A stretch of DNA of 22,515 bases from a virus: positions 1-22,515 of IMG/VR virus record IMGVR_UViG_3300006480_000032; one strand, written 5' to 3'. A model generated the notes under the pieces. The model saw nothing but the letters and a program-made list of their open reading frames with translations. It was not told the origin of the DNA and searched no databases. Below are positions 7,676 to 18,208 of this stretch, one piece after another (the stretch's first letter is position 1; every line of letters begins with the position of its first letter). The translations under genes and the position numbers were made by a program.

Positions 7676-8037
7676 TAAATATTCCTTAAAATACTTTCTA
7701 CTTTTTCATCATTCTTTATATCTTTTAGTTCACCATCTGGAAGAATGTTTAATAATTCCATAAATGGTTTAACATATTTCCATAACGAAGTTTCTAACTT
7801 AAATAACAATAATGTTGAACACGCATCTGCACCAAAGACATTATTTAAAACAATTATATGATTTAAAATCAATCGTTCTTTCAAAGACCCATTGTCTTGA
7901 TACTTTCTCAACAATCTCTTGATATATTTAAATCTTTTCATATCATCAAGAAATTCTTTTTCATTATCCCCTTGAGGATTATTATAATGTTTCATTGCAT
8001 ACATCATAACATTATCAGGCGTTATTTTTTCAAACAT
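7675..8037 (-). CDS. Conserved marine T4-like phage protein (FEKITPDN family)
   Basis: A 120-aa, largely alpha-helical protein. Recognisable conserved segments are FEKITPDNVMMYAMKHYNNP (2-21), FLDDMKRFKYIKRLLRKY and LKERLILNHIIVLNNVFG (about 53-70), followed by a helix with KLETSLWKYVKPF. This small protein recurs next to the 212-aa gene product in marine T4-like phages in my memory, but no function is assigned to it. It joins both neighbours by TAATG overlaps, so the three proteins at 7037-8468 should be made in coupled amounts, consistent with a shared complex. Confidence 0.8.
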   Translation of the reverse strand: MFEKITPDNVMMYAMKHYNNPQGDNEKEFLDDMKRFKYIKRLLRKYQDNGSLKERLILNHIIVLNNVFGADACSTLLLFKLETSLWKYVKPFMELLNILPDGELKDIKNDEKVESILRNI

Positions 8038-8468
8038 TATTTAATTTCGGCAGTTACCTTAAATTTTCCATTTTCTTTTTTTTCATAAACAAAGTTAATG
8101 GAACGACCACCTTCAACCCTATGCGAAATACCATCATCGTTAACAAACTCATCGTGTGGAGTATCAATATCTTTACCAAATCTTCCACCAAATTGTGTAA
8201 GTGGTGCAGATATACTTCCAGAATCTTCTACTATATCAACATTTGGAAAACTTAATCCAATACTTGCAAGTCTTCTTCTTACAACACCAATAGTTTGTTC
8301 TGGTAACATATGTTCCATATCAGCGATGCAACCTAGAAATGAGTTTAGTTTTCTAACAACACTATCATCAGATACATCAATCATATCGTGGTCAGAATCG
8401 TGTTGTGCATTAGAGTTCGCAGGCTTCGGCCCTCGTAGTTCAGTGATATACTGTTTAAAATCTATCAT
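8037..8468 (-). CDS. Virion-associated protein with capsid-targeting-like N-terminus
   Basis: A 143-aa protein starting [13 protein letters not shown]. This resembles the T4 internal-protein targeting sequence MKTYQEFIAE, with a possible prohead-protease cut after Glu10. The body contains VVRKLNSFLGCIADM, a helix with VVRRRLASIGLSFP (about 63-76) and a C-terminal beta region (GGRSINFVYEKKENG, FKVTAEIK). The segment around LASIGLSFP occurs in marine phage structural proteins. Its role is unknown, and a core or head component is inferred from the N-terminus and from coupling (TAATG) to neighbours on both sides. Confidence 0.75.
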   Translation of the reverse strand: MIDFKQYITELRGPKPANSNAQHDSDHDMIDVSDDSVVRKLNSFLGCIADMEHMLPEQTIGVVRRRLASIGLSFPNVDIVEDSGSISAPLTQFGGRFGKDIDTPHDEFVNDDGISHRVEGGRSINFVYEKKENGKFKVTAEIK

Positions 8469-10917: not shown

Positions 10918-11442
10918 CTATTTATAACCTAATCGCTTTAGTGCACTTAAGGTTGTGCTCACAGATAAATGATGTATTCCTATACCACCTTTTGATTCCC
11001 ACTCTTTAATATTTTTAGCATGGTCATCAATTAAAACATTAGGTTTGTTGTTTGTCATAGCAAAATTCTTCTTTTGGGCTCTTAATACTAAATGTATTCG
11101 ACTTCTTTGAGTTAATTTAGCATTCTTTCTTAACCATTTCAATTTACCTGGTATACTATTACTATCTGATTTTGTATATGCAGATAATATATGTGAGTCA
11201 TATTTATTCACAAATGTCCATAATCTCTTTGCACCAGGCATCCATTCTAAAGTTTCCCAAAAATCTTTCTTATCGTGAATAAGTGGCCATCTTCTATCTT
11301 TGTCAAACTCTATAAATGATTTACCAAGAACTTTTTCTGCACCATCTAAAAAGTTGCATAATACTTGGTCCATATCACAATATAAAGTAGGTAATTCAGC
11401 CTCACTTAATTTAGAATCATATACATCATAAAAATTTTTCAC
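10918..11442 (-). CDS. HAD-superfamily 5'(3')-deoxyribonucleotidase-like phosphatase
   Basis: A 174-aa protein with all four HAD motifs: Y21-C-D23-M-D25-Q-V-L (nucleophile and acid/base Asp), I85-L-S87-A-Y-T90, K124/K125 in LRAQKKNFA, and V136-L-I-D139-D140. The size and the WETLEWMPGAK cap resemble 5'-nucleotidase, deoxy (NT5C) type enzymes, which dephosphorylate nucleoside monophosphates; the substrate is not shown. The first 18 residues (MKNFYDVYDSKLSEAELP) resemble a capsid-targeting start, with LSE|A as a good prohead-protease site immediately before the catalytic domain. The start codon is GTG with GAGAGG 5 nt upstream. A consensus early promoter lies in the gap upstream, so it may be made early, unlike its virion-protein neighbours. 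Confidence 0.85.
   Translation of the reverse strand: MKNFYDVYDSKLSEAELPTLYCDMDQVLCNFLDGAEKVLGKSFIEFDKDRRWPLIHDKKDFWETLEWMPGAKRLWTFVNKYDSHILSAYTKSDSNSIPGKLKWLRKNAKLTQRSRIHLVLRAQKKNFAMTNNKPNVLIDDHAKNIKEWESKGGIGIHHLSVSTTLSALKRLGYK
10919..10926 (-). promoter_or_regulatory. T4-type late promoter box for structural genes
   Basis: TATAAATA on the minus strand, overlapping the stop codon region of the HAD nucleotidase gene. Transcription would start near 10913 and give a leader of about 22 nt that carries AAGGAG before the ATG at 10890. It separates the structural genes at 10890 and below from the early promoter further upstream. Confidence 0.75.
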
Positions 11443-11499: not shown

Positions 11500-11793
11500 C
11501 TATAAGGCACCCATAACTGCTCTTGCATTGTCTAATTCATCAAAAGCTCTAGATAACAATTCTTTATCTAATTGTTGTCTAGTTTTTTGTAAAGGTCCTG
11601 TTAAAGAACCAGCCTTATCCTGGTCTTTTTTAAGTTTTTCATACTTCTTAATTAAACCTTTATCACCAATAATTTTTGCAATCTGAAGTCTTACTTCAGT
11701 ATGTTGATTTTGGTCTGTCATTTTGGCAAACTTTTTAATTGTTGAGTCTGGTACTCTTCTGCCTTCTTTTATAAATTGTTTTAGTGTTCTCAT
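11500..11793 (-). CDS. 97-aa protein with capsid-targeting-like N-terminus
   Basis: Starts MRTLKQFIKE|GRRVPDS, one of the closest matches in the window to the T4 targeting sequence MKTYQEFIAE, with IKE followed by Gly as a standard prohead-protease site. The remainder is helical and charged (HTEVRLQIAKIIGDKGLIKK, LQKTRQQLDKELLSRAF). Cleavage would leave an 87-residue mature internal protein. The start overlaps the preceding gene by ATGA. I do not recognise a family, and no catalytic motif is visible. Confidence 0.72.
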   Translation of the reverse strand: MRTLKQFIKEGRRVPDSTIKKFAKMTDQNQHTEVRLQIAKIIGDKGLIKKYEKLKKDQDKAGSLTGPLQKTRQQLDKELLSRAFDELDNARAVMGAL

Positions 11794-12457: not shown

Positions 12458-13267
12458 TTATTTCATCATACCGATGTGAGCTGCAACTCTTTTAGATTGA
12501 CCTAAATGCATTTTAGAAGCATTTTCTAGCTCTTTTACAATTTTTTTCATATCTTCTAAATCACCAGGAGCTTCATGTATAACATTTTCCTGTACCGGAT
12601 TTAGAATATAATCTCTTAATTTATTCATACTGTTTGATGCAACAGCAAGTTTATTAGTCCACCAACTAGGTAGTGAATCTTCTTTTCCCATAGTGTTTAA
12701 TTTATTCATAATCTCATTTGCATCTTCAATCATCGTTTTACATTGTCTAATTGCAGATGAAACATCAGCGTGCCCATCTTCATTAAGTTCTTCTTTTAGT
12801 GCCTTTTCAACACCTTTAGAACTGTCTTTACCATATTTCTTTTCAAGTGCCTTCATTAATTGTTTATCAAACTTTTTAACTTCAGGCCCCTTTGTAATAC
12901 CTTTTTTTTGTAATTCACGATAATACTTAAATAGTGCTGGTGCTTTCAGTTCTATAAAATTACCAACCTCTATTCTTGCTTGTAAAGGGTCTGGGTTTTT
13001 TCTTTTCATAAGTTGAGCAATTCTTGCAACTATAGCTTCTTTCGGAGGTAATGCCTGAACATATTTAGATTCATAAGATTCTTTTTTTGCCATCTTTGTT
13101 GCAGTTGCCATTTTTACAGATTTCCAATCATCACCATATCTTTTTTTAAATTCATCGTCTGGAAGGTCTTTTGCAATCTCTTCTCTTCTTTTAAGTTCTT
13201 TAGGAGTTAGTTCTCTTTCTTGAACTTTTTTGTACGACTCTGATATACTTTGTCTATAATGTGTCAT
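12458..13267 (-). CDS. Mosaic internal/virion protein
   Basis: A 269-aa protein built of small modules seen in many phage virion proteins. Residues 1-12 (MTHYRQSISE|SY) look like a capsid-targeting start with ISE|S. Residues about 18-63 (ELTPKELKRREEIAKDLPDD, then FKKRYGDDWKSVKMATATKMA) form a recognised recurrent module. Residues 163-222 (NEDGHADVSSAIRQCKTMIE, then SLPSWWTNKLAVASNSMNKL) form another. The end (NASKMHLGQSKRVAAHIG) is a third. The junctions at LNE|D (161-164) and IHE|A (230-233) fit prohead-protease specificity, so the protein may be cut into separate peptides in the head. AGGAAG precedes the ATG. No catalytic residues are evident. Confidence 0.78.
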   Translation of the reverse strand: MTHYRQSISESYKKVQERELTPKELKRREEIAKDLPDDEFKKRYGDDWKSVKMATATKMAKKESYESKYVQALPPKEAIVARIAQLMKRKNPDPLQARIEVGNFIELKAPALFKYYRELQKKGITKGPEVKKFDKQLMKALEKKYGKDSSKGVEKALKEELNEDGHADVSSAIRQCKTMIEDANEIMNKLNTMGKEDSLPSWWTNKLAVASNSMNKLRDYILNPVQENVIHEAPGDLEDMKKIVKELENASKMHLGQSKRVAAHIGMMK

Positions 13268-13275
13268 AGTTCTTC

Positions 13276-15798
13276 CTAGTTATCTACTTTTGCACCTTTT
13301 CGCCATTGAAAACAACTCCAATATCTGGCTTTAGTTTTAGGCCCTGGATTATCACAATTATGTCTTGCTCTAAAACTTTTTCTTCTACCAGGGTCATCTC
13401 TTTTGATTTCCATATTTGGGTCACCAAAAGTTACTTTAATTATGTTACCTTTTTCATTTTTTACATAAACACCAAACTTTTTATTACTTCCAGAAGGTAA
13501 TCTAAATGGGTCATTTAACTTGACTTTTTTACCTTGATATTCGGCTTCACCTAAGGTATCGTTTTCTATATATTTATTATTACAATCATCGCAGCTCACT
13601 TTCTCTAACATTCTATTATATGTTTCTTTGAGTCTTTCTTTCCAGTTTTCTTTGTATCTATTTTGATACTCTTCTCTAGTAGATTTCCTCTCAAACCAGT
13701 CTTTGATATTTTGTTCACTTGCTTTCTTTGATTTGAAAGTCTGTTCATATTTCTGACCTGGTGTAGTGGAAAAAGTGTGTTTAGCATAATCTACTCCTAT
13801 ATCATAAGATTCTTTTTTAGAACCTCTTGCCTTTGCAGCTAAATCTTTATCTGCTCCGCCCCATGTTCCTTTTGATTTTGTAACAAATGAATTAACTCTC
13901 GCAAATCCCCATTGTTGTGGTGTAGTACCTGGTCTATGACCTGTTCTCCAAGCAGCCATACCTCTATCATATACTTTTTTAAGTATACCATAAGCGATAC
14001 CTGACTTCTCTGATTTCTTCACTAGACCTGCAACTTTTTCGTCTAATTGAAAGCTTTCATCTATTTCAAAATCTACTTTGGCTGCCAATTTACTTGGTAA
14101 CTTACCCTTTTTAATTAGACCATTAATATAGTAAGCTATATCTCTAGCCTCTACACCTCTAATCATTTGACCTAATGCCTGAGCAGGATTTTTATGTCCT
14201 TGTTTATGTAAATCGACATACATTTTCATAATTTTTTCATAACCTTTAGGGTGAGTTATTTGATGTATTTTATCATAGATTTTTCTATAATAAGGCATCT
14301 CTTCAATGTTCTCTTCACCTTGTGCTCTTTTCATTTGTGCTGGTGTAGGTGCACCTTTATCACCAACTTTTCTCATCTTCTCACCTGAACCTTGTTTAAT
14401 TCTTTGTCTTTTCTTATGAATATTTGCCCATAAACTTTCACCAAACATTTTCTTATATTTAAGTGTATGTTTAGATGGTTTTGTTTTTGCACCTTTATCA
14501 CCTGGTGCTGGTTTATATGCATCAGGATTATCATCGTCCATTTTTGTACCTTTTGCAAAATGTCTTGCTCTTGCTTGTTTTGTTGACTTTGCTAATTCAT
14601 TATCTTTTCCTGGCATATCATAATACTTTGCAGGTTGTGTACCTTCTCTATCTTTTATATCTGGGTCTTGTTTAGTTTTCTTTGGTGCTTCTTTTTCTTT
14701 CTCTTTCTTTTCTCTTATTGTATTTAAAAATGCCTTATAGAAATTTTCACCATCATAGTATTGTACATAATTAGGACCTCTTCTTACTACTTCACCTGAT
14801 GTACCATCAACTGTATTTTCTACTAAATCACCTACTCTGTATAAAACACCTCTTACATATAAATCTCTTTCTACTTCTTCTTCAGAAAATTGAGAAGTTT
14901 CTTTCAGGCCCATACCTTGTCTAACATCTTTAAATAGTTTTTCACCATTTCTATAACCTTTAGGTAGACCTTTTACAAATTCTTTAAAATTATTTTGTGA
15001 GGCAGCTAACCTCATTTTTGATGCACTCATTCCTGTTACTCCTTCAGCGTCTGGGTCCCTATCGCCTGCACTAAACACTTGTATATTATCAAAATCGTAA
15101 AACCCATGTCTTTTTTCTTGACCATTGTATGTCTTCAACAGTTTTTGAAACTCTGCAACTCTATCTGAACCAACGACCATATTTAATTCTTTGTATCCTT
15201 GTTCATGAAAATAAACTGCAATATCTAAAGCTGTCTTTAATTTATTATTTGCTACTATGTTTCTTTTATGTTTAGGAAACATATCTCTCATATATGCAAC
15301 TTTTTTAGAAAAAGGTAAAGGGTCTTTTTTAGGGTTTTGAGAATGTGATGGAAATATATAATAGTCATCTCCACCAGCAATCTTTCTAACTTTTTCTATC
15401 AACTTCTCATGACCAGTTGTTGGTGGATTAAATCTACCAAATGTAAATACAACTGATTCAGTTTTTTCCATAAATGTTCTAAAAGTTACTGATTCTTTTT
15501 GTTGTTTTTGTTTTGTAATCTTTTTCATTTTTTCTATATATTTTCTATACACTGCTGCTTCTGCAGTCTTACCCATAACTCTTGCTCTTTGTTCCATTGC
15601 AATAGCTGCTTGTATTTTATGTGCATGAGTTTTTCCACTATTCTCTATTTTCTTAACAGAAGCTTCTGCTGTCTTAACATCTTTAAAACCAAGACCATGA
15701 ATAGTACCTTTAGGGTTCTCATCAGTATATAAATCTGAATGTTTATCAGAACCTGCAGGCTGACCTTTCTTTCTTGGTATTCTAGGTGCTTCTTGCAT
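13276..15798 (-). CDS. 840-aa mosaic protein with HxGH-type nucleotidyltransferase domain
   Basis: Modules in order: (a) residues 5-95, a small domain with KGQPAGSDKHSDLYTDENPK and HAHKIQAAIAMEQRA; (b) FRTFMEKTE at 106-114, a CTS-like junction; (c) 114-295, a cytidylyltransferase-fold nucleotidyltransferase with G121-R-F-N-P-P-T-T-G-H130 and M257-S-A-S-K-M-R263, closest in look to NadM/NadR-type NMN adenylyltransferases; (d) 311-360, an SH3/KOW-like beta segment; (e) 451-490, the common phage segment ESLWANIHKKRQRIKQGSGE; (f) about 585-660, a DUF5824-like module (RGMAAWRTGHRPGTTPQQWG); (g) CxxC at 736-739; (h) 751-838, a module ending RARHNC...YWSC. The start overlaps the upstream stop as TAATG. 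IDE|S (579-582) and LGE|A (749-752) sit between modules and fit prohead-protease cleavage. The substrate of the transferase is unproven. It may be a virion polyprotein. Confidence 0.82.
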   Translation of the reverse strand: MQEAPRIPRKKGQPAGSDKHSDLYTDENPKGTIHGLGFKDVKTAEASVKKIENSGKTHAHKIQAAIAMEQRARVMGKTAEAAVYRKYIEKMKKITKQKQQKESVTFRTFMEKTESVVFTFGRFNPPTTGHEKLIEKVRKIAGGDDYYIFPSHSQNPKKDPLPFSKKVAYMRDMFPKHKRNIVANNKLKTALDIAVYFHEQGYKELNMVVGSDRVAEFQKLLKTYNGQEKRHGFYDFDNIQVFSAGDRDPDAEGVTGMSASKMRLAASQNNFKEFVKGLPKGYRNGEKLFKDVRQGMGLKETSQFSEEEVERDLYVRGVLYRVGDLVENTVDGTSGEVVRRGPNYVQYYDGENFYKAFLNTIREKKEKEKEAPKKTKQDPDIKDREGTQPAKYYDMPGKDNELAKSTKQARARHFAKGTKMDDDNPDAYKPAPGDKGAKTKPSKHTLKYKKMFGESLWANIHKKRQRIKQGSGEKMRKVGDKGAPTPAQMKRAQGEENIEEMPYYRKIYDKIHQITHPKGYEKIMKMYVDLHKQGHKNPAQALGQMIRGVEARDIAYYINGLIKKGKLPSKLAAKVDFEIDESFQLDEKVAGLVKKSEKSGIAYGILKKVYDRGMAAWRTGHRPGTTPQQWGFARVNSFVTKSKGTWGGADKDLAAKARGSKKESYDIGVDYAKHTFSTTPGQKYEQTFKSKKASEQNIKDWFERKSTREEYQNRYKENWKERLKETYNRMLEKVSCDDCNNKYIENDTLGEAEYQGKKVKLNDPFRLPSGSNKKFGVYVKNEKGNIIKVTFGDPNMEIKRDDPGRRKSFRARHNCDNPGPKTKARYWSCFQWRKGAKVDN

Positions 15799-16967
15799 TA
15801 CTTATATCCAAACATTTGTAACCCAGATGTTTCAACTTTTTCTGGTTCTATTTCAAAAAAACGAAGTATAGCATCAATACCATATTTAGCTAACTCTTTT
15901 AATCTAGTCATAATTTTTATAAATAAATCTTTTAACCAATTTTTAATTTTCACAAATAAATTTTCATTTAAAGTCTGTTCATTCAGTATTTCATTTTCTA
16001 ATTTATGTGCATGCGAATTAACAATTAATCTAAATGCACCAACTGTATCTGCAGTACCTTTACTACTTACTCTACTTCCTGTTGGTGTTTTTACTGACAC
16101 TCTAATATCTACTTTTTTAGCTATACCTTTTATATAAGAACTAGGTGATGCTCTACCTTCAGATAATTTTTCTACTAAATTACTACCACCTTTATCATCA
16201 AATTCAACTAACCAATTTGCTTTGGCATATGTATCTGGTAAAAATTTTGTTTCTCCTGTTGCAGCTTCATAACAAAAAAACTGACTAAATATAGGATTCT
16301 TTTGAAAGTAATCTCTAACAATAGGTTGAACACCTTTTAATGCCTTCTTCATATCAATTAAAGATTTCATTGACTCTTGATACTTTGCTTGGTCTATATC
16401 AATATCGACATTCTTTTTTCCAAACTTTGCTCTGACAGTTTTTGGTATTACATTCTTTTTTATTGCATTTACTAGTGAATTAATATTACCTTGTACTGTA
16501 AGTTTCTTCATTACAGGTTCTAATTGTTTTACAAGTCTAGCTGCATCTTCTGGTGCTTCTTTACCCATATATTCTACTGCAGCATCAAATGTGGCTAATG
16601 TTTCATCTTTGTAACCAGACATTAATTGAGAACCACCTTTTTTCTTTAAAGATATATTAATACCATCAGTTGAGTACAAGTCTGTTTTAGGTGTATTGTT
16701 TGTACCTCTCCATTTAGGATTTAATTTACCTGCACCACTTCCAAAGTGAATCATTGAATTTTCAGATGCACCTGTTTTATCTCTAATATCATTTGCAATT
16801 TTTTCAACGACATCTGCATATTCATTATAAAGATTTTCTTCTATACCATATCTATCTTTTGCATTATTGAAACCACCGTTAAAAGCAATTACAATTAACT
16901 CTTCAAATTTAGCAGCAGGTATTTTAGTTTTTGCTTGTTCATTTATATGTTGTTTGAAACTTCTCAT
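15798..16967 (-). CDS. PD-(D/E)XK-like protein with capsid-targeting-like N-terminus
   Basis: A 389-aa protein starting MRSFKQHINE|QAK, CTS-like. A candidate nuclease core lies at 20-115: acidic residues E22/E23 in a helix (KFEELIVIAF), then NPKWRGTNNTPKTDLYSTDG with D96, and ISLKKKGGSQLMSG with K108. This is the pattern of a PD-(D/E)XK fold (acid...D...(S)xK, then a Gly/Gln turn), similar to restriction-enzyme-like phage proteins. The middle is helical; VSVKTPTGSRVSSKGTADTV (about 295-314) is beta. The C-terminus is an amphipathic helix (LFVKIKNWLKDLFIKIMTRL) that could contact membrane. It overlaps the ligase-like gene by ATGA, so the two are coupled and may act together on DNA ends. The nuclease call is inference from motif order. 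Confidence 0.72.
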   Translation of the reverse strand: MRSFKQHINEQAKTKIPAAKFEELIVIAFNGGFNNAKDRYGIEENLYNEYADVVEKIANDIRDKTGASENSMIHFGSGAGKLNPKWRGTNNTPKTDLYSTDGINISLKKKGGSQLMSGYKDETLATFDAAVEYMGKEAPEDAARLVKQLEPVMKKLTVQGNINSLVNAIKKNVIPKTVRAKFGKKNVDIDIDQAKYQESMKSLIDMKKALKGVQPIVRDYFQKNPIFSQFFCYEAATGETKFLPDTYAKANWLVEFDDKGGSNLVEKLSEGRASPSSYIKGIAKKVDIRVSVKTPTGSRVSSKGTADTVGAFRLIVNSHAHKLENEILNEQTLNENLFVKIKNWLKDLFIKIMTRLKELAKYGIDAILRFFEIEPEKVETSGLQMFGYK

Positions 16968-18208
16968 TTATCCCATGCCTTTCTTGCTGTAAAATTATTA
17001 TATGAAAATTCCATTCTATCTACTAGTTTAACAGCATTTCCAGCTTTGTCAATAGCAACATAACCTTCTGGATTGACTGCTTTAAAACCTTTATCTGTTT
17101 TTATAAATGTATTTGCTAATTGTTTTACTTCGTTTAATTTATTTACAATCATCATCTTGGCAGAAACTAAAGAGTTTTGAAATAAAATAATATTTTCTAA
17201 ATTTTTTAAATGTTTAGTAAACTCTCTAATGTATTCTTTTTTATTTCTATCAAACTTATCTTTTGCACCTTGAGTTTTTACTTTTTGTTTTAGTTTTTCA
17301 AAATGCATTTCAATATGGTCTATATAACCTTTTGCATGTTGTTTTACATTTTTAATTGTTTCACCTTGTCTAACTTTAATATTATTATATGTTTTCAAAC
17401 TTGCACCAGATAAATTACCAGTCATCGCATTTTGTAGTCTAATAAACTTATCAAGTAAACTTGAATTGATTCTTCTAAATATACTACCAGTTTGTGATAA
17501 TAATTTTGTTACTTGTTCTGTTTCTGATTTTGTAAATGTTGCTTTACCAGATACATCTTTATAAGAAGCATCGTCCATCCAAACACTATTTACTTTATTT
17601 AATCCTTTGATATTAGCACCAAAGCTTGCTTTCATGCCTTGTAGTGTATCTCCTTCGTAGGTGGTGTGCCATACGACTCCAATTTTTGCTTGTGATATTC
17701 GTTTACCCAAATCAGAACTAGGTAATGTAGCATACACGATAGTATTAGGCTGAAAGGAAATATAAGTTTCGCCATCAATTTTCTCCTTCTTTAAATCTTC
17801 ACTGGTAAACATCAAATCACCTTGAAGAACATTTTTTATACCCAATTTAGAAAATTCTTTTAATGCAACTTTAAATTTAGAGTTAAGACCACCAGACACA
17901 TCTGCATCTATTTCAGCATTTGATTTATACAATTTTGGATTTACATTGAATACAGATTTTTTAGCGACAAAGAACTTGCCATCTGAAGGGTCTACACCAG
18001 CAAATATAGCAGGAGCACCGTCCCACTTTACTGTCATATTTACACCACCAGATGCTGTACCAGCCAACATATTTCTTAACTCTTGTAAGAAATTTATTGC
18101 ACCTCTAGCACCACCTACACCGAAGTTGATTATCTCATCTTCTAGATGTTCTAAATGTAAATTTTTACCCTGCTTATCTTCTAATAAGAATTCTTTAAAT
18201 GTTAACAT
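16964..18208 (-). CDS. DUF6267-like protein with polynucleotide-ligase-type motifs
   Basis: A 414-aa protein that matches, from memory, a family of marine T4-like phage proteins (HLEHLEDEIIN...GG..GAI.FL) usually left as DUF6267. It shows motifs in the order of covalent nucleotidyltransferases (DNA/RNA ligases): motif I K61-W-D-G64, FVAKKS (80-85), a GDLMF segment at 130-134 in the place of motif III, motif IV E381-G-Y-V384 and motif V K394-L-V-D-R398. If correct, K61 would be adenylated. The start MLTFKEFLLE|D is CTS-like. Residues 285-365 form an inserted helical region. An early/late double promoter and a palindrome lie just upstream. The ribosome-binding site is weak (GAG 3 nt from the ATG, GGAAAA further up). 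The enzyme call is inference, while the conserved-protein call is firm. Confidence 0.75.
   Translation of the reverse strand: MLTFKEFLLEDKQGKNLHLEHLEDEIINFGVGGARGAINFLQELRNMLAGTASGGVNMTVKWDGAPAIFAGVDPSDGKFFVAKKSVFNVNPKLYKSNAEIDADVSGGLNSKFKVALKEFSKLGIKNVLQGDLMFTSEDLKKEKIDGETYISFQPNTIVYATLPSSDLGKRISQAKIGVVWHTTYEGDTLQGMKASFGANIKGLNKVNSVWMDDASYKDVSGKATFTKSETEQVTKLLSQTGSIFRRINSSLLDKFIRLQNAMTGNLSGASLKTYNNIKVRQGETIKNVKQHAKGYIDHIEMHFEKLKQKVKTQGAKDKFDRNKKEYIREFTKHLKNLENIILFQNSLVSAKMMIVNKLNEVKQLANTFIKTDKGFKAVNPEGYVAIDKAGNAVKLVDRMEFSYNNFTARKAWDK

Follow-up and report, generated by a model that had tools for sequence, protein, structure and literature searches.

A protein family of T4-like marine phages, DUF6267, placed by predicted fold and invariant motifs among the covalent nucleotidyltransferases

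The IMG/VR virus record IMGVR_UViG_3300006480_000032 (positions 1 to 22,515; 22.5 kb, hereafter the window) encodes on its minus strand a 414-residue protein of the family DUF6267 which, as judged from its modelled fold and its core motifs, is a divergent covalent nucleotidyltransferase. With somewhat better than even confidence, we read it as a polynucleotide ligase of a divergent kind, most likely dependent on ATP, that acts together with a coupled nuclease and with a protein resembling NMN adenylyltransferases (NMNAT-like). Close to the window are, within the family Kyanoviridae, the Methylophilales phage Melnitz, whose DUF6267 protein is 65% identical, and the Pelagibacter phage HTVC008M. 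A preliminary description of the window had called the product DUF6267-like, had noted that the family is usually left unannotated in marine phages, and had proposed a divergent DNA or RNA ligase that may be packaged in the capsid. The family identity is borne out by Pfam DUF6267 (PF19782), which spans the whole open reading frame (ORF; E 8.4e-103, 345 bits against a cut-off of 27, profile positions 1-376 of 376). The ORF also matches PHROG 455, and both families are indeed without assigned function.

Structural modeling strongly suggests a ligase-like fold. The AlphaFold2 model, for which an alignment of 72 representatives served as input, reached a pLDDT of 85.7 and a pTM of 0.82, and all 50 PDB entries listed for it by VIA-align are RNA or DNA ligases. 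The list is headed by the Naegleria gruberi RNA ligase (NgrRnl; Z 8.6 over 181 residues at 3.7 Å), followed by TbREL1 (8.2), T4 Rnl2 (7.5), T4 Rnl1 (7.3) and human LIG1 (6.6), with a fungal tRNA ligase ranking between T4 Rnl1 and the human enzyme. In the model, K61 ends a strand, E381 precedes one and K394 lies inside one, as in ligases, a placement that agrees with a putative common pocket of the motif residues. Thus, the fold search that had been proposed as a check pointed to the nucleotidyltransferase superfamily and not to an unrelated fold.

The motifs KWDG (starting at residue 61), FVAKKS (80), GDLMF (130), EGYV (381) and KLVDR (394) occur at the residues and in the order previously described. 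In a single sequence such motifs are weak evidence; composition-preserving shuffles of the protein yield KxDG alone in 20.6% of cases, and the ordered series KxDG...EGhh...K in 0.41%. We regard the motif set as real because it is conserved across homologues, which were gathered from viral contigs, isolated phages and genome contigs and evaluated as a set of 72 representatives, whose identity to the window protein ranges from 25 to 76%, and a set of 256 sequences including those of Xanthomonas and Vibrio jumbo phages. K61, D63, G64, K84, D131, E381, G382 and K394 are all invariant among the representatives. In the larger set, K61, D63, G64 and D131 are found in 255 of 255 sequences (one gap), E381, G382, V384 and K394 in 256 of 256, and K84 in all but one, which carries K84Q. 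Poor conservation of K61, which would have spoken against the proposal, was therefore not observed. Two positions depart from the textbook pattern: the acidic residue of motif III, the register of which is inferred, is an aspartate (D131, within strand 127-135 of the model) instead of a glutamate, and the second lysine of motif V is replaced by V396 in all 256 homologues, with R398 kept in 254.

A comparison of family profiles, from which a large insert of DUF6267 was left out, aligned DUF6267 to the T4 Rnl1 family with a score of 28.4, pairing K61 with K99, E381 with E227 and K394 with K240. None of 100 column-permuted profiles reached this score (maximum 25.7), and Rnl1 and Rnl2, whose kinship is accepted, attain no more than 18.0 when compared with each other in this way. 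The DUF6267 profile gave no signal against Rnl2 or the DNA ligase gp30, and neither did Rnl1 against Rnl2. It might be argued that the motifs are chance matches within an unrelated fold, KxDG alone being found in 21% of the shuffles. This, however, is scarcely credible, as it is contradicted by the ligase fold list, by the Rnl1 alignment and by the conservation in 256 homologues.

Several results weigh against the reading as a ligase. Searches of the PDB with phmmer and with profiles identified no ligase relative of DUF6267, and no ligase model of Pfam (to E 1), PHROGs, NCBIfam or PADLOC matches it; the assignment therefore does not rest on sequence-only searches. Foldseek alone yielded no significant PDB match for the model (best ligase E 0.4), although its top five nevertheless contain T4 Rnl1 and an NAD ligase. 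VIA Z values of 7-8 are common for unmatched models, and a value near 8 does not settle the matter on its own. The model lacks the OB domain present in DNA ligases and capping enzymes, as the chain ends 20 residues past K394 and no beta-barrel occurs elsewhere. The substitutions in motifs III and V count on the same side, as does the finding that the jumbo phages XaC1 and Vibrio 2.275 possess DUF6267 in addition to a DNA ligase, Rnl1 and Rnl2. We place DUF6267 in the covalent nucleotidyltransferase (ATP-grasp/RAGNYA) superfamily because the structural list comprises a single superfamily and the catalytic residues of this superfamily are independently invariant. To this extent, the proposal of a divergent DNA or RNA ligase is supported at the level of fold and motifs. 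Within the superfamily, the protein is best called a new family, since fold and core motifs fit but an assignment to DNA ligases, capping enzymes, Rnl1 or Rnl2 fails. Neither PF09511 (T4 Rnl1 family) nor PF09414 (RNA_ligase) matched DUF6267, with T4 controls being positive; of the two-lysine motif V (KxK) typical of these families, DUF6267 has only the invariant K394; and the adenylation domain of NAD+-dependent DNA ligases (PF01653) was neither matched by DUF6267 nor found in the examined phage records.

With T4 Rnl1, DUF6267 shares the KxDG motif, a basic motif Ia, an EGYV located 13 residues before the motif V lysine and an origin in phages, and this enzyme gives the best profile alignment. 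DUF6267 differs from it by some 145 inserted, largely helical residues between motifs IIIa and IV, by the absence of the C-terminal domain of Rnl1 and of a sequence-family match, and by D131 and V396 at positions where Glu and Lys stand in Rnl1. Of the best structural matches, NgrRnl has an extra domain at its N-terminus and T4 Rnl2 at its C-terminus and, unlike DUF6267, neither comes from a coupled phage gene with a capsid tag. T4 gp30 belongs to the same superfamily but has an OB domain. The ligase domain of bacterial Pnkp, fused to a kinase and a phosphatase, likewise combines a ligase core with a helical insert module; it is not among the listed structural matches of DUF6267. A further resemblance is to RLIG1 (C12orf29). 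The structure of a viral (Yasminevirus) RLIG1 shows KxDG, a motif IIIa histidine and, 13 residues beyond the glutamate of motif IV, a single named lysine of motif V; it lacks a C-terminal domain and has the Naegleria ligase as top Dali match (PMC11494293). DUF6267 is alike in each of these respects, a likeness by description and not by sequence comparison; unlike DUF6267, RLIG1 has no link to a nuclease or to head targeting.

If DUF6267 acts as a ligase, K61 would take AMP from a nucleotide cofactor, aided by D63, D131, H181, E381 and K394, and the AMP would be passed to a 5'-phosphate end, which would then be attacked by a 3'-OH. The helical insert might substitute for the missing OB or C-terminal domain in clamping the substrate. 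Among the 256 homologues, motifs IV and V are always 12-14 residues apart, while the stretch from motif I to motif IV ranges between about 210 and 320 residues, as would be expected if the active site is fixed and the insert varies; in short-form members, the insert is about 70 residues shorter.

The DUF6267 ORF overlaps by 4 nt with that of a 389-residue partner. Homologues of this partner directly adjoin DUF6267 in related contigs, mostly upstream, at -4 or +3 nt, and about 46 of 50 loci have it within -4 to +3 nt. The partner model (pLDDT 80.3) matched MspI (VIA Z 9.9) and HinP1I (9.3 and 9.0), with the next entry at 4.3, and Foldseek gave MspI with a probability of 0.96. By its model, the partner thus has the MspI/HinP1I restriction-endonuclease fold. 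It shares with these enzymes the pattern E...TPKTD...SLK, of which E22, TPKTD96 and SLK108 are invariant in its alignment, but differs in being phage-borne, in having no methylase partner shown and in an extra C-terminal helical tail. We do not extend this assignment to cyanophages, as a comparison of profiles did not connect the nuclease family with the upstream neighbour family of cyanophages. Proteins of the latter (Syn1_159, S-SCSM1 gene 90) have about 450-500 residues and, in Syn1, lie directly upstream of DUF6267; gene 90 is annotated as a virion protein.

Of 296 loci, 254 have a gene of the NMNAT/cytidylyltransferase-like family downstream of DUF6267, and 175 have a helicase ahead of it. 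The 840-residue member of the NMNAT-like family in the window matches Pfam CTP_transf_like (8.4e-5), DUF5824 (2.2e-16) and phrog_3041 (4e-99), and weakly the NMNAT equivalogs; its C-terminal part is a separate ORF in HTVC008M. Both parts, ligase-like and NMNAT-like, are joined in a single polypeptide in S-PM2 and in another phage protein. The deposited S-PM2 record (L087:2992-4771) has DUF6267 split over two ORFs, the second also holding the NMNAT-like domain, and another S-PM2 protein entry has both as one 591-residue fusion. This constant association, and the occasional fusion, with an NMNAT-like nucleotidyltransferase could also be expected if DUF6267 moved AMP or another NMP to a protein, a small molecule or a 5' end without joining, as an AMPylator or a capping enzyme does, and the altered motifs III and V and the lack of a C-terminal domain would fit. 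We consider such a role improbable: the KxDG aspartate, the motif IV glutamate and a basic motif V are invariant, as in end-joining enzymes, and capping guanylyltransferases need an OB domain. We rather suggest that DUF6267, the co-translated nuclease and the NMNAT-like protein form one cassette within the replication/recombination region.

In T4, internal proteins are directed into the head by a 10-residue N-terminal sequence, and the protease gp21 cuts after L/I-X-E (PMC9026906). The window DUF6267 begins with MLTFKEFLLE followed by D, that is, with about ten residues ending in L-X-E, resembling a T4-type capsid-targeting sequence (CTS). Since the pattern is unspecific in single sequences (11 of 27 window genes carry one), only its conservation among homologues was counted. 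[LIVMF]xE was found in the N-terminal extension of 73 of 73 close, 77 of 78 pelagiphage and 0 of 80 cyanophage homologues, and in 4 of 78 members of a helicase family from the close and pelagiphage groups that served as control; the extension diverges fast between relatives while the hydrophobic-x-Glu persists. The pattern is present in 127 of 157 sequences of the NMNAT-like family and in 70 of 102 of the nuclease family, and in methylophages, pelagiphages and several other branches all three cassette proteins have a T4-type CTS in most members. It is because all three carry such N-termini that we propose their loading into the prohead, where they would be trimmed by a gp21-type protease and from which they would be delivered with the DNA.

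Where this could be checked, the signal predicts packaging. Three cyanophage virion proteomes detected the NMNAT-like protein (PMC9146016, PMC9602691, PMC10665884), which does carry a CTS-type N-terminus, and DUF6267, of which the S-SZBM1 copy has no CTS, is not listed among the virion proteins of S-SZBM1, S-CREM2 and S-SCSM1. Genes 89 and 90 of S-SCSM1 had wrongly been taken for DUF6267; gene 90 falls into the upstream neighbour family, and the DUF6267 protein is encoded by gene 257, whose product is not a listed virion protein. The absence from these lists counts against our reading. The earlier suggestion of packaging likely holds for the lineage of the window, as indicated by the conserved N-terminus, and is not supported for the cyanophage branch, which is devoid of this N-terminus and in which the enzyme is probably made after infection. 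The window ORFs 8037-8468, 10918-11442, 11500-11793 and 12458-13267 (all on the minus strand) likewise start with T4-like capsid-targeting N-termini, which suggests that the window holds a whole cluster of internal head proteins; that at 10918-11442 resembles 5'(3')-deoxyribonucleotidase. The T4 internal proteins and Alt have the same kind of 10-residue extension ending in L/I-X-E (PMC9026906), but none of them is a ligase, Alt being an ADP-ribosyltransferase. The N-terminal signal in some branches could also be taken to mean that DUF6267 is a ligase-derived structural or scaffolding head protein that has lost catalysis. We regard this as very improbable, since the catalytic residues are invariant in 256 sequences and the cyanophage branch keeps the active site without the signal. 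To our knowledge, a capsid-delivered ligase would be new.

DUF6267 was found in 464 phage records, compared with 474 that have a close UvsX, corresponding to about 97% of Kyanoviridae. In seven examined Kyanoviridae with full-length DUF6267, none of four Pfam DNA/RNA ligase families was matched, and S-SCSM1 and S-CREM2, which also carry DUF6267, have no Pfam-recognised DNA/RNA ligase; the same searches recovered gp30, Rnl2 and Rnl1 from T4. A 2010 review reported cyanomyoviruses to be without a recognisable g30 ligase and without nucleases that degrade host DNA, and raised the possibility of distant homologues or of substitutes not yet described (PMC2984593). DUF6267 and, in lineages with the 389-residue family, its coupled nuclease are candidates to fill these gaps, and the DNA ligase seemingly missing from these phages may be DUF6267. 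Its role is neither that of a mere replacement ligase nor merely redundant, since jumbo phages that own other ligases keep it. In a bolder version, which we consider unlikely, DUF6267 would be the DNA ligase that has gone unrecognised in Kyanoviridae, and several lineages would inject it from the capsid as part of a cut-and-seal kit that also holds the MspI-type nuclease and an NMN adenylyltransferase; the nuclease would attack host or rival DNA, the ligase would seal the incoming genome, and the NMNAT-like enzyme would regenerate the nucleotide cofactor. In metaG-MbCM1 (JN371769.1, 145359-145721), the DUF6267 region is labelled 'NrdB ribonucleotide reductase A subunit', an apparent misannotation. 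DUF6267 also occurs in GTDB on contigs (L327-L364) of bins labelled archaea, Planctomycetota, Chloroflexi and others. No cellular home of the family was found there, all GTDB matches being metagenome bins or large phage-looking contigs, and they look like phage contigs binned into genomes.

As substrate of the putative ligase, DNA ends or nicks are slightly and tentatively favoured, because the partner has a DNA-cutting fold and the neighbourhood is one of replication. RNA is possible yet less probable, being favoured by RNA ligases as nearest folds, by the lack of an OB domain and by a P-loop kinase adjacent in HTVC008M; some other substrate is unlikely. The kinase (Zeta_toxin/AAA_33; L085:6742-7404) is located between the genes for DUF6267 and the NMNAT-like protein; Melnitz also has a homologue, at a distance from the cassette. 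Alternatively, DUF6267 might be an RNA (tRNA) repair ligase, virion-delivered in the lineage of the window, which counters anticodon nucleases as T4 Rnl1 and polynucleotide kinase do. The RNA ligases as closest folds and closest profile, the missing OB domain, the RLIG1-like motif set and the kinases of HTVC008M and Melnitz would be in line with this. We nevertheless consider it rather unlikely, as the partner that is constantly coupled to DUF6267 shows the fold of a DNA restriction endonuclease, the kinase stands outside the common cassette, no phosphatase or 2H domain was seen adjacent, and XaC1 and Vibrio 2.275 already own Rnl1 and Rnl2.

Table 1. Positions of the DUF6267 gene, its elements and its cassette neighbours in the window.
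Feature	Position	Strand	Basis or conservation
DUF6267 ORF, predicted covalent nucleotidyltransferase (ligase-like)	16964..18208	-	414 aa; Pfam, AlphaFold2 model, VIA-align
CTS-like N-terminus MLTFKEFLLE, predicted gp21-type cleavage after E10	18179..18208	-	[LIVMF]xE conservation
Conserved N-terminal element NLHLEHLED (aa 16-24), HxEHxED	18137..18163	-	H18, H21, E23, D24 invariant in 72-sequence alignment
Motif I KWDG, K61 predicted AMP acceptor	18017..18028	-	K61 255/255; pairs with T4 Rnl1 K99
Motif Ia-like FVAKKS, conserved K84	17954..17971	-	K84 255/256
Motif III-like QGD (D131)	17816..17824	-	D131 255/255; strand 127-135
FxPNT element (aa 152-156)	17741..17755	-	near-invariant in 256 homologues
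Motif IIIa-like KIGVVWHTTY (aa 175-184)	17657..17686	-	H181, T182, Y184 256/256
Insert separating motifs IIIa and IV (aa 215-362), mostly helical	17123..17566	-	DSSP of model
Motif IV EGYV (E381)	17057..17068	-	256/256; pairs with T4 Rnl1 E227
Motif V KLVDR (K394, R398)	17015..17029	-	K394 256/256, R398 254/256; K394 pairs with T4 Rnl1 K240
Coupled partner, 389 aa, MspI/HinP1I-like PD-(D/E)XK nuclease fold (predicted), CTS-like MRSFKQHINE	15798..16967	-	AlphaFold2, VIA-align, Foldseek
840-aa protein, NMN-adenylyltransferase/cytidylyltransferase-like domain (aa ~115-300) and DUF5824 (aa 596-651)	13276..15798	-	Pfam, PHROG

The T4-like phages that infect cyanobacteria, SAR11 and OM43 rank with the most abundant marine viruses. 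By the present analysis, a near-universal Kyanoviridae gene of unknown function is placed in the ligase superfamily, and its coupled neighbour in the MspI/HinP1I nuclease fold, as predicted from their models. With both assignments at hand, the questions of the missing ligase and of the missing nuclease of cyanomyoviruses therefore become testable with two purified proteins.

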